Shown here: piece by piece, positions 19,421-61,372 of the stretch
Numbering within the stretch: the stretch's first letter is position 1
How the letters are laid out: each line of letters begins with the position of its first letter
NCBI RefSeq assembly: GCF_008629655.1
Contig: NZ_VWSG01000006.1
Location: 1-64,000, forward strand
Length of the DNA stretch: 64,000 bases
Source: Paenimyroides baculatum
GTDB taxonomy: Bacteria > Bacteroidota > Bacteroidia > Flavobacteriales > Flavobacteriaceae
Reading direction: 5' to 3'
The notes under the pieces: generated by a model
The model's input: the letters and a program-made list of their open reading frames with translations, nothing else
Databases searched by the model: none
What the model was told of the DNA's origin: nothing
Translations under genes and position numbers: made by a program

Positions 19421-19492
19421 GGCCCGTTCGTCTATCGGTTAGGACGCCAGGTTTTCATCCTGGTAAGGGGGGTTCGATTCCCCCACGGGCTA
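19421..19492 (+). tRNA. tRNA-Glu (UUC), copy 1
   Basis: 72-nt cloverleaf with acceptor arms GGCCCGT/ACGGGCT, anticodon loop with TTC, T arm GGGGG-TTCGATT-CCCCC. No CCA is encoded. All four copies are identical. Confidence 0.96.
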
Positions 19493-19495
19493 CAA

Positions 19496-19512
19496 AGGTT
19501 ATCATCGAACCT
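19496..19512 (+). repeat. Inter-tRNA hairpin, first of three
   Basis: AGGTT / AACCT stem followed by an A run, between tRNA-Glu copies 1 and 2. The same hairpin recurs after copy 2. After copy 3 it is AGGTTT / AAACCT, where both arms have changed together. It is absent after copy 4. A processing signal is possible. Confidence 0.5.
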
Positions 19513-19522
19513 AAAAAACGAT

Positions 19523-19594
19523 GGCCCGTTCGTCTATCGGTTAGGACGCCAGGTTTTCATCCTGGTAAGGGGGGTTCGATTCCCCCACGGGCTA
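19523..19594 (+). tRNA. tRNA-Glu (UUC), copy 2
   Basis: Identical to copy 1; 30-base spacer from the preceding copy. Confidence 0.96.
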
Positions 19595-19625
19595 CAAAGG
19601 TTATCATCGAACCTAAAAAAAAGAT

Positions 19626-19697
19626 GGCCCGTTCGTCTATCGGTTAGGACGCCAGGTTTTCATCCTGGTAAGGGGGGTTCGATTCCCCCACGGGCTA
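19626..19697 (+). tRNA. tRNA-Glu (UUC), copy 3
   Basis: Identical to copy 1; 31-base spacer from the preceding copy. Confidence 0.96.
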
Positions 19698-19727
19698 CAA
19701 AGGTTTTCATTAAACCTAAAAAACGAT

Positions 19728-19799
19728 GGCCCGTTCGTCTATCGGTTAGGACGCCAGGTTTTCATCCTGGTAAGGGGGGTTCGATTCCCCCACGGGCTA
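19728..19799 (+). tRNA. tRNA-Glu (UUC), copy 4
   Basis: Identical to copy 1; 30-base spacer from the preceding copy. The sequence after it does not repeat the inter-tRNA hairpin. Confidence 0.96.
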
Positions 19800-19954
19800 C
19801 AGTTAGTTGTAAATAAGTTTTGTAAAATACTAGTCAGTGTCTCGATTATTATTTTATTAGTTAAAACCAAAGTGATTGGTAACAATTGTGGGAGGTTTTT
19901 CTTTTTTAACTAAAAGTTTTAAAAATAATTAATTACAATTAAAAAGATTAAAAA

Positions 19955-34325: not shown

Positions 34326-34398
34326 GACTCGATAGCTCAGTTGGTAGAGCACAACACTTTTAATGTTGGGGTCCTGGGTTCGAGCCCCAGTCGGGTCA
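34326..34398 (+). tRNA. tRNA-Lys (UUU), copy 1
   Basis: 73-nt cloverleaf, acceptor GACTCGA/TCGGGTC, anticodon loop CTTTTAA with TTT. No encoded CCA. Identical to copies 2 and 3. Confidence 0.96.
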
Positions 34399-34406
34399 CA
34401 TAGTAA

Positions 34407-34489
34407 GGCTGTGTGGAGGAACTGGTAGACTCGCCATCTTGAGGGGGTGGTGTCATCAAGACGTGTCAGTTCGAATCTGATCACAGTCA
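34407..34489 (+). tRNA. tRNA-Leu (GAG)
   Basis: 83-nt class II tRNA, acceptor GGCTGTG/CACAGTC, anticodon stem CCATC/GGTGG with loop TTGAGGG (anticodon GAG), long variable arm TGTC-loop-GACG. It sits between two tRNA-Lys copies. Confidence 0.93.
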
Positions 34490-34511
34490 CTTTTAAAATA
34501 TTGATATTATT

Positions 34512-34584
34512 GACTCGATAGCTCAGTTGGTAGAGCACAACACTTTTAATGTTGGGGTCCTGGGTTCGAGCCCCAGTCGGGTCA
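34512..34584 (+). tRNA. tRNA-Lys (UUU), copy 2
   Basis: Identical to copy 1. Confidence 0.96.
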
Positions 34585-34617
34585 CATTTATATCAATTAA
34601 AATTAAATAAGTCATTT

Positions 34618-34690
34618 GACTCGATAGCTCAGTTGGTAGAGCACAACACTTTTAATGTTGGGGTCCTGGGTTCGAGCCCCAGTCGGGTCA
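34618..34690 (+). tRNA. tRNA-Lys (UUU), copy 3
   Basis: Identical to copy 1; a terminator follows eight bases later. Confidence 0.96.
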
Positions 34691-34697
34691 CTTTTTT

Positions 34698-58961: not shown

Positions 58962-60527
58962 TTATTTAGCTATATTAACAGCTCTTGTTTCTCTGATAAC
59001 GGTAATTTTAACCTGACCTGGATAAGTCATTTCGGTTTGAATTTTCTGTGATATCTGGAACGATAAGTTAGATGCTAATTCATCTGAAACTTTTTCGCAA
59101 TCTACAATAACACGTAATTCTCTACCAGCTTGGATTGCATACGCATTTTTAACACCGCCAAAACCGTAAGCAATATCTTCTAAATCTTTTAAACGTTGAA
59201 TGTATGAGTCTAAAACTTGTCTGCGTGCACCTGGTCTTGCTCCTGAAATAGCATCACAAACCTGAATGATTGGTGATATTAATGAATTCATTTCAATTTC
59301 ATCGTGGTGAGCACCAATGGCGTTACAAACTTCTGGTTTCTCACCATGTTTTTCTGCCAACTGCATACCTAATAATGCATGTGGTAAATCACTTTCTGTA
59401 TCTGGCACTTTACCAATATCGTGTAATAAACCTGCGCGTTTTGCTAATTTTACGTTTAATCCTAGTTCTGCGGCCATTATACCACAAAGTCTAGCTACCT
59501 CACGTGAATGGTGTAATAAATTTTGACCGTAAGAAGAACGGTATTTCATACGACCAACCATTTTGATTAATTCAGGGTGTAAACCGTGAATTCCTAAATC
59601 AATAACAGTACGTTTACCTGTTTCAACAATTTCTTCGTCGATTTGTTTGGCTGTTTTGGCAACAACTTCTTCAATTCTTGCTGGGTGAATACGTCCGTCT
59701 GTTACTAAACGGTGTAACGATAAACGGGCAATTTCACGTCTTACAGGATCAAAACATGAAAGGATAATAGCTTCAGGAGTGTCATCGACAATAATTTCTA
59801 CACCCGTTGCAGCTTCTAACGCACGAATATTACGACCTTCACGACCAATTATACGTCCTTTTACATCGTCTGATTCAATATTAAAAACAGATACACAGTT
59901 TTCAATAGCTTCTTCTGTTCCTACACGTTGAATGGTGTTGATGATAATTTTACGAGCTTCTTGTTGAGCCGTCATTTTAGCTTCTTCAACAGTATCTTGA
60001 ATGTAAGCCATTGCATGTGTTTTAGCTTCGGCTTTTAAGTTCTCAACTAATTGTAGTTTGGCTTCTTCTGCAGTTAAACCAGCAATTTGTTCTAGTTTTT
60101 CAACCTGAACACGGTGCAATTTATCTGTTTCTTCTTGCTTTTTCTCTAAAGATTCTAATTTTAATTCATAATCTTTAATAGTTTTTTCACTTTCCTCGGC
60201 AGCTTTTTTAGCGCGGTTTAATTCATTAGAAATCTGAGATTCTTTATCGCGGGTTCTTTTTTCAGATTCTGCCATTTTTTTATCTCGCGATAAAATAACC
60301 TGCTCATGTTCTGCTTTTAGTTCAATAAACTTTTCTTTTGCCTGAAGAATTTTATCTTTTTTAAGAGTTTCTCCTTCTGCGCGTGCGTCTTTTAAAATTA
60401 CCTTGGCCTCGCTGTTTGCATTTTTAAGTATAGATGATGCGTTGTTTTTTTCAAGGTATTTTGCAATTGCAAAACCAATTCCGGCACCCACTATAATTGC
60501 GCAAATAATAAATATTGCTGTTTCCAT
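58962..60527 (-). CDS. rny: Ribonuclease Y
   Basis: 521-residue membrane-anchored endoribonuclease that starts mRNA decay. An N-terminal membrane helix ([22 protein letters not shown]) is followed by a long coiled coil to about 195. A KH domain follows ([23 protein letters not shown]), then the HD catalytic domain with the HD pair in GLLHDIGK and the HDxx motif [11 protein letters not shown]. The 3' end lies behind a shared terminator; the 6S-like RNA and zapA lie upstream on the same strand. Confidence 0.97.
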
Positions 60528-60545
60528 TCGTGTGTAAATAGTTAA

Positions 60546-60706
60546 TAAAAAAAGCCCACATTAGAAGAGTTGCATAAACTCTGGAAAACAAGTTTTGAGT
60601 TATCTTGCCGTTCAAGGATCCATTCTAGATGGCTTGCTTTAGTGGCAATGGTTCACCCATTTTAATTTGTTAGTGTTGAGTTTATCAAACAGAAGCTAAT
60701 GTGAGC
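60546..60706 (-). ncRNA. ssrS: 6S-like RNA between zapA and rny
   Basis: A roughly 160-base structured RNA on the minus strand. The 5' arm GCTCACATTAG (60706-60696) pairs with the 3' arm CTAATGTGGGC (60564-60554), directly followed by a T run (60553-60547), so the closing stem is also a terminator. Inside, ATAAACTC/GAGTTTAT (60581-60574 with 60685-60678) forms a second stem. TTGCC/GGCAA (60609-60605 with 60648-60644) is a third, and CCAT/ATGG (60632-60629 with 60623-60620) caps the apex. The long rod with an open central bubble is the 6S RNA shape, and zapA is its classical neighbour. A Rfam class 6S-Flavo RNA exists in Flavobacteria; membership is recalled, not checked. Confidence 0.75.
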
Positions 60707-60735
60707 AGTATTTTTCAGCCTTAAAATTAAAGCTG

Positions 60736-61038
60736 TTATTTTATATGATATTTTAATAAAATTTGATCTAAACCGTTGTTAAATTCAATTAGTTTTTCTT
60801 TAGAATTATCTAAACCTTCTTCGTTTTGTATTCTGTTTTGTTCTACTTGCGATGCAAACTGTAAAGCACAAAATGCTAATACATCTTGCTTGTCGCGCAT
60901 TTCAAAATTTTCTTCGAGCTGTAAGGTCATCGTTTCTATTTTTTTTACTGCGGCGCGTATTCCTTCTTCTTGATCCGGATTAACGGTTAACGGATACACT
61001 CTGTCTGCAATAGAAACTTTTATCTTTAATTTTTCCAT
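60736..61038 (-). CDS. zapA: Cell division protein ZapA
   Basis: 100-residue ZapA, which bundles FtsZ filaments at the division site. N-terminal KIKVSIADRVYPLTVNPDQEEGIRAAVKKI is the conserved part and QDVLAFCALQFASQVEQN begins the C-terminal coiled coil. An ATG at 61038 is chosen; a TTG at 61044 is the only other option. It lies six bases from the upstream coiled-coil gene. Confidence 0.92.
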   Translation of the reverse strand: MEKLKIKVSIADRVYPLTVNPDQEEGIRAAVKKIETMTLQLEENFEMRDKQDVLAFCALQFASQVEQNRIQNEEGLDNSKEKLIEFNNGLDQILLKYHIK

Positions 61039-61044
61039 AAACAA

Positions 61045-61341
61045 TTAATCTATTTTTGTTAATTGTGATATGCAATGATCTATTTCCCGAACTAATGAAT
61101 TTATCTTTAGTTTTGTTTCTTTTTTAAAATCTTCACTGCCCAATAACCCGTTTGCAATTTTTAAATTATCATACTGTTTTTGTAATTCAATATGTTTTTG
61201 CTGCAAATTGGTTTGCTGTGTTTGGTGTTGTAAAAGCTCGTTTCTTAATTGTTCGTTTTCTTTAACAACTTTTTCCAAATGCTGTATCAATTTATTCAAC
61301 TTCGTTTCAATCGATAAAGTGATATCACTTAGTTTTTCCAT
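61045..61341 (-). CDS. Small coiled-coil protein upstream of zapA (ZapB-like)
   Basis: 98-residue protein that is nearly all coiled coil with heptad hydrophobics (LIQHLEKVVKENEQLRNELL). It has no other domain. Its place before zapA, plus its coiled-coil form, matches the ZapB-like or SlyX-like partner seen in this position in Bacteroidota, but sequence alone does not prove a division role. First gene of the unit with zapA. Confidence 0.8.
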   Translation of the reverse strand: MEKLSDITLSIETKLNKLIQHLEKVVKENEQLRNELLQHQTQQTNLQQKHIELQKQYDNLKIANGLLGSEDFKKETKLKINSLVREIDHCISQLTKID

Positions 61342-61364: not shown

Positions 61365-61372
61365 CAAATTTA
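61365..61372 (-). promoter_or_regulatory. -7 element (TAAATTTG) for the coiled-coil/zapA unit
   Basis: Minus-strand TAAATTTG, 23 bases before the ATG at 61341. Confidence 0.6.

Follow-up and report, generated by a model that had tools for sequence, protein, structure and literature searches.

Does the narrow stretch between zapA and rny in Paenimyroides baculatum encode the 6S RNA of this bacterium, and if so, from which promoter is the RNA made? The first-pass annotation had placed here, on the minus strand, a structured RNA in the 6S position, far in sequence from E. coli 6S, and had proposed for it the role of a global RNA polymerase decoy. A lineage-specific family, 6S-Flavo, was published in 2010 and is entered there as fulfilling the same function as a validated class (Weinberg et al., PMC2864571). 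6S RNA is reported as detected in F. psychrophilum (PMC9723704), and the 6S RNA of B. thetaiotaomicron is described with two kinds of product RNA (PMC7366714). We analyzed the locus within the window, i.e. the whole 64,000-nucleotide stretch of contig NZ_VWSG01000006.1, and compared it with genomes of the same family (Flavobacteriaceae), order and class. Genome draws were even samples, not censuses, and searches of more than 40 genomes used stricter filters.

We found that the Rfam covariance model of 6S-Flavo (RF01685) matches positions 60576–60681 of the minus strand at 94.2 bits (curated cut-off 85, E 5.1e–15), which settles the family in favor of the earlier proposal. The match covers the model end to end (1–108 of 108) and is the only copy in the P. 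baculatum genome. In a survey of the family with one genome per genus, 59 of 60 genomes contain RF01685, each with one match, and 53 of these exceed the cut-off; the sole genome without a match is an 80%-complete assembly. The model is group-specific, matching only 4 of 119 genomes of the class. Searched across the whole P. baculatum genome, the canonical 6S model RF00013 gives no hit at E ≤ 1 (the same model does hit 6 of 14 control genomes), as expected of a sequence said to be far from E. coli 6S. Hence, it is architecture, gene order and published work that link this RNA to canonical 6S. Scanning 501 bases at permissive settings also returned an end-to-end match to Bacteroidales-1 (RF01693), below threshold at 30.7 bits versus a cut-off of 60 (E 0.0023). 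Across the phylum, RF01693 matches 3 of 148 genomes, none of them reaching the cut-off.

The RF01685 match covers only the inner part of the RNA. The ends given below are predicted ends, placed by conservation across relatives. All features lie on the minus strand and are listed in the direction of transcription.

60547–60710, minus strand: 6S-Flavo RNA, predicted full extent, starting at UACUGC and including the whole U run (conservation; RF01685 at 60576–60681)
60696–60706, minus strand: closing stem, 5′ arm, GCUCACAUUAG, pairing with 60554–60564
60678–60685, minus strand: AU-rich second stem, 5′ arm, AUAAACUC, adjoining the conserved bubble bases AAC (fold, alignment, covariation)
60574–60581, minus strand: second stem, 3′ arm, GAGUUUAU, pairing with 60678–60685 (fold, covariation)
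60554–60564, minus strand: closing stem, 3′ arm, CUAAUGUGGGC, running directly into the U run
60547–60553, minus strand: run of seven U, terminator-like, directly after the closing stem (sequence)

An inner UUGCC/GGCAA stem and an apical hairpin are present on the same strand, and with them every element that the first-pass annotation had named (long closing stem, AT-rich second stem, inner stem, apical hairpin, T run) has been located. Its bounds, 60546–60706, were right to within a few bases: a full-length covariance model, R1, matches 60548–60710 at 147.8 bits, the P. baculatum sequence being among the 29 from which R1 was built. The folding energy of 60546–60709 is –42.0 kcal/mol versus –27.9 ± 3.4 for 200 dinucleotide shuffles (z –4.1, none of the 200 as good). 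A wider stretch, 60530–60720, folds less exceptionally (z –3.2, 2 of 200 shuffles as good).

Covariation was scored on 62 loci, comprising the 59 of the family survey, two further ones of the same genus and a single locus of another family, which were trimmed so as to start at the conserved UACUGCC and stop with the last U of the run and were aligned by sequence only; the scored structure was derived from this same alignment. The consensus fold has 35 pairs, with 97.6% of cells paired. Both sides have changed in 28 of the 35 pairs, amounting to 240 cells versus 55.5 in shuffles and 16–48 with slid partners (none of 500 shuffles as high). The proposed stems thus covary, and the fold and the covariation together give the 6S hairpin architecture of closing stem, large central bubble and apical stem, with the compensatory changes in conserved secondary structure that are looked for in 6S-Flavo. 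The inner stems and conserved bases are the same in RF01685 and in P. baculatum. However, the Rfam model is 108 nt long and leaves the outer part unpaired, whereas the RNA of P. baculatum and its relatives is ∼164–206 nt long, and the closing stem, unpaired in the model, covaries strongly (changes on both sides in 10 of 12 pairs of this helix across the 62 sequences). The extent of 6S RNA in flavobacteria can now be redrawn to include a covarying closing stem that is absent from the Rfam model. In 62 of 62 loci the closing stem is followed by a run of 4–9 T, so that transcription probably also ends at this stem.

The genes around the RNA are arranged as follows.

61365–61372, minus strand: sigma-A –7 box TAAATTTG, exact, 31 nt before orf98, the putative operon promoter (same box in 54 of 54 loci)
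61045–61341, minus strand: orf98, without a Pfam match, leading the putative orf98–zapA–6S operon (upstream in 60 of 62 loci)
60736–61038, minus strand: zapA, upstream neighbor (PF05164, E 2.6e–15)
60711–60735, minus strand: zapA–6S spacer, in which relatives usually carry GTTCTTT (sequence comparison)
58962–60527, minus strand: rny (RNase Y), downstream neighbor (PF12072 with HD and KH domains)

zapA, 6S and rny all lie on one strand. Within the covariation set, zapA is upstream in 61 of 62 loci and rny downstream in 60 of 62, the lone locus without zapA being cut by a contig end. R1, which derives from 29 of the 62 sequences, was built without the neighboring genes, and gene order is therefore an independent check on its matches. 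The model matches 77 of 119 genomes of the order and 25 of 149 genomes of the class (a different draw from the 119 class genomes searched with RF01685). Among 62 matches in other families of the order, zapA is upstream in 61 and rny downstream in 61, both genes being present in 61 of 62; for 20 matches in other orders, the corresponding counts are 15, 17 and 15 of 20. Three class matches (L138, L143, L149) have neither neighbor, and some of them may be false. In a model-fitted alignment of 40 R1 matches, one row of which (L126) is a weak match of 24.8 bits on the wrong strand, 93.3% of cells pair. The full-length model thus extends 6S detection beyond the family, mostly at the same zapA–rny locus.

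The position next to zapA is real and conserved, as had been claimed, and is shared with E. coli, where zapA and ssrS (RF00013) follow each other on one strand, 41 nt apart and in the same order as in P. baculatum. The E. coli RNA is likewise a long hairpin with a central bubble, but the downstream gene is fau in E. coli and rny in P. baculatum. The curated RF01685 score, the covarying stems and the conserved zapA–6S–rny locus together confirm a 6S-Flavo RNA adjoining zapA. We therefore put at about 0.93 the probability that this long irregular hairpin of ∼164 nt is the one 6S RNA of the P. baculatum genome and belongs to Rfam family 6S-Flavo. As a 6S gene, the RNA at 60547–60710 is an additional member of an already published family and a matter of routine annotation.

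Two other readings of the hairpin have to be weighed against this identity. That AT-rich spacers often fold is all we found in favor of a chance hairpin between two genes, and none of 200 shuffles folds as well, the stems covary and the locus is conserved, so that this reading can be practically discounted. The hairpin could also act in cis, as a leader of rny reached by read-through past the closing stem, rather than as a free 6S RNA. About 20 nt separate the end of the U run from the start of rny, the gene found downstream in 60 of 62 loci, and no obvious sigma-A promoter of its own is seen for rny: the exact –7 box TAnnTTTG occurs in none of the 62 loci within the last 100 nt of the RNA and in 5 within the 80 nt after it. 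However, such a leader would be at odds with the score of 94.2 bits against a curated 6S family and with a U run that follows a covarying closing stem. Moreover, the related RNA of Bacteroidales type does not lie beside rny, RNase Y being found in 2 of the 118 loci listed, ∼2.5 and ∼7 kb away. We regard an exclusively cis-acting role as very improbable; read-through into rny could add to a 6S role but not replace it.

As a 6S RNA, the P. baculatum transcript would inherit the decoy role from its family membership. By analogy with the 6S family, its central bubble would mimic an open promoter, and the RNA would be held by the housekeeping sigma holoenzyme as cells slow down and released as the polymerase uses the 5′ strand of the bubble to template a short product RNA. 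The stretch copied may lie across the invariant AAC beside the stem ACUC/GAGU. The search pattern for the 3′ strand of the bubble was found in 61 of 62 loci, and 41 of these 61 carry TAAACTTG or TAAACCTG there, which is close to TAnnTTTG; the strand reads AAAACTTG in P. baculatum and often AAATCCTG in the Bacteroidales loci examined. We keep a promoter mimic at the level of sequence as a weak idea only, as position five is mostly C where TAnnTTTG has T. RF01693, for which Rfam notes '6S-Bacteroidales RNA suggested', shares the ACUCA and CUCAAA...CUUGU...GAGUUU blocks with the P. baculatum RNA and is likely the kind to which Bacteroides 6S RNA belongs.

Where, then, is the promoter? The –7 box of the housekeeping sigma factor in this phylum is given as TAnnTTTG (PMC7366714, PMC9723704). 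A sigma-A promoter of its own directly before 6S was considered for the family and found unsupported: within 85 nt of the RNA, TAnnTTTG occurs in 2 of 61 loci versus 2.7 in shuffles (mononucleotide here and in all word counts below). The family counts omit L062, a locus of another family already counted in the order set as L129, and in one family locus (L022) the sequence ahead of the RNA is only 62 nt long. Among the other families of the order the box is found just before 6S in 0 of 62 loci (shuffles 2.2), and in other orders in 4 of 20 (shuffles 0.8), the latter speaking somewhat against a uniform rule. Pooled over zapA-type relatives, a local –7 box is present in 6 of 143 loci and is no commoner than chance. 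At the start of orf98, 600–700 nt upstream of 6S, TAnnTTTG recurs in 54 of 54 loci that extend far enough (backwards-read pattern, 7), and in 26 of 34 loci of the order and class (backwards-read pattern, 3). We infer that 6S synthesis in zapA-type loci is operonic and perhaps antiterminated. 6S would then be the 3′ part of the orf98–zapA transcript, with its 5′ end made by processing and the closing stem and U run ending the transcript, a scheme drawn from comparison of the loci.

The suggestion of antitermination comes from the spacer between the zapA stop and 6S. The word GTTCTTT is present there in 98 of 143 loci outside Bacteroidales (e.g. L002, L131, L189): 46 of 61 in the family, 38 of 62 across other families of the order and 14 of 20 in other orders, with shuffles giving ≤0.2 each. 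One family of the order mostly lacks it among the spacers examined. Outside the spacer, the sense strand of the same loci contains the word 4 times in 87,660 nt for the order and 5 times in 56,214 nt for the class. The spacers of relatives carry this boxA-like core word in a set position upstream of the RNA, at a near-constant distance from its start in the family (18–32 nt) and at 10–70 nt outside it. In its context the word often reads GTTCTTTAAAATA or GTTCTTTAACATA, resembling the boxA of rRNA leaders: the E. coli rrnB leader carries GCTCTTTAACA 143 nt before 16S, at the place and with the core of boxA, and the spacer word agrees with this core at 7 of 8 letters (GTTCTTTA/GCTCTTTA). In nine family genomes, GTTC(A/T)TT lies 121–149 nt before 16S in 19 of the 20 rRNA leaders with room, from 8 of the 9 genomes (16S loci L071, L075 and L082, too short or with a wrongly placed start, are omitted). 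However, 18 of these 20 leaders read GTTCATT and only one GTTCTTT, so the match of the spacer word to the local boxA is close, not exact. The E. coli zapA–ssrS gap has neither GTTCTTT nor GCTCTTT. Given the rRNA-leader words and the E. coli rrnB core, we read the spacer word of relatives as boxA-like, not as a proven boxA.

A related pattern, MGTTCTTTWAAAWA, is common genome-wide, with 2–11 matches per genome and 64 in total across 12 genomes (reversed control 0–5, 21 in total), and an exact match falls within the 6S spacer in only 4 of the 12. Hence, it is the position before 6S, not rarity, that carries the boxA argument. In an Rfam scan of 20 loci with this pattern, one holds 6S, ∼1.2 kb away, and two have tRNA genes right beside the word; the latter lie in two other genomes of the family (L103, 1501–1598; L104, 1412–1592).

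Bacteroidales-type loci look different. At least 118 of them were picked by a 6S core sequence word (two records titled as other groups, L292 and L326, are probably mis-binned), and 116 remain after setting aside two with <110 nt upstream. TAnnTTTG lies within 110 nt before the core word in 108 of these 116 listed loci (shuffles 7.7), and GTTCTTT in 1 of 116 (shuffles 1.2). ZapA was not found beside 6S at E ≤ 0.01 in any of the 118 loci listed, and the two RNase Y matches mentioned above are the only ones; the missing neighbors are weak evidence at this sensitivity, as only 62 of the 118 loci have >1 kb on both sides and ZapA is short and variable. In contrast to this local –7 box, zapA-type loci mostly have a box at the operon start and often GTTCTTT before 6S, and two gene plans therefore seem to exist: in one, 6S stands alone and has a promoter to itself; in the other, it forms the tail of an operon, frequently behind a boxA-like word. 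This pattern, a comparative inference, is the fresh part beyond known 6S-Flavo membership, and it makes the origin and control of 6S in the phylum directly testable.

By position, the P. baculatum locus would belong to the operon-tail plan. Its own spacer (60711–60735), however, does not contain the boxA core word that six other genomes of the genus carry there as GTTCTTT (four), GTTCTTA (one) or GCTCTTT (one). Positions 60716–60735 read CAGCTTTAATTTTAAGGCTG. This short inverted repeat includes TAATTTTA, a –7 box with one mismatch (60729–60722, 7 of 8 letters). Such one-mismatch boxes are uninformative as a class in the family; a weak promoter, TAATTTTA, may have replaced the boxA-like word here.

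Under a boxA reading, a site just past the zapA stop would let the antitermination complex shield the untranslated stretch from Rho and help the closing stem to form between its distant arms, and 6S output would share machinery with rRNA. In E. coli, Nus factors and SuhB at boxA are credited with a role in 30S maturation, and boxA is reported to counter Rho in reporters (PMC4807359); both roles would suit a long untranslated hairpin closed by its distant ends. Among the titles and abstract openings listed in searches of the open-licence literature, none reports a boxA before 6S. GTTCTTT might instead be a promoter element or a 6S processing site. Its near-constant 18–32 nt distance in the family is what a DNA element might show, and the prevalence of GTTCATT in family rRNA leaders, the lack of the word in P. 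baculatum and the abundance of the related pattern elsewhere point the same way. On the other hand, the agreement with the rrnB core, the wider spacing outside the family, easier to reconcile with an RNA signal than with a promoter, and the –7 box at the orf98–zapA start instead argue for boxA, and we hold the promoter or processing reading to be plausible, if on the doubtful side. The full scheme, in which 6S outside Bacteroidales (within Bacteroidia) would be a promoterless tail of orf98–zapA whose boxA recruits the rRNA antitermination complex, Bacteroidales would have stand-alone sigma-A genes and P. baculatum would have lost boxA, falls just short of an even chance in our judgement. Were the boxA link true, a brake on RNA polymerase would be tied to the machinery that makes rRNA.

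Other RNA genes of the window include four tandem tRNA-Glu(TTC) genes at 19421–19800 and a cluster of three tRNA-Lys(TTT) and one tRNA-Leu(GAG) at 34326–34691. A 5S rRNA gene at 1–83 is cut at its 5′ end by the contig start, and an rRNA operon therefore probably breaks the assembly there.
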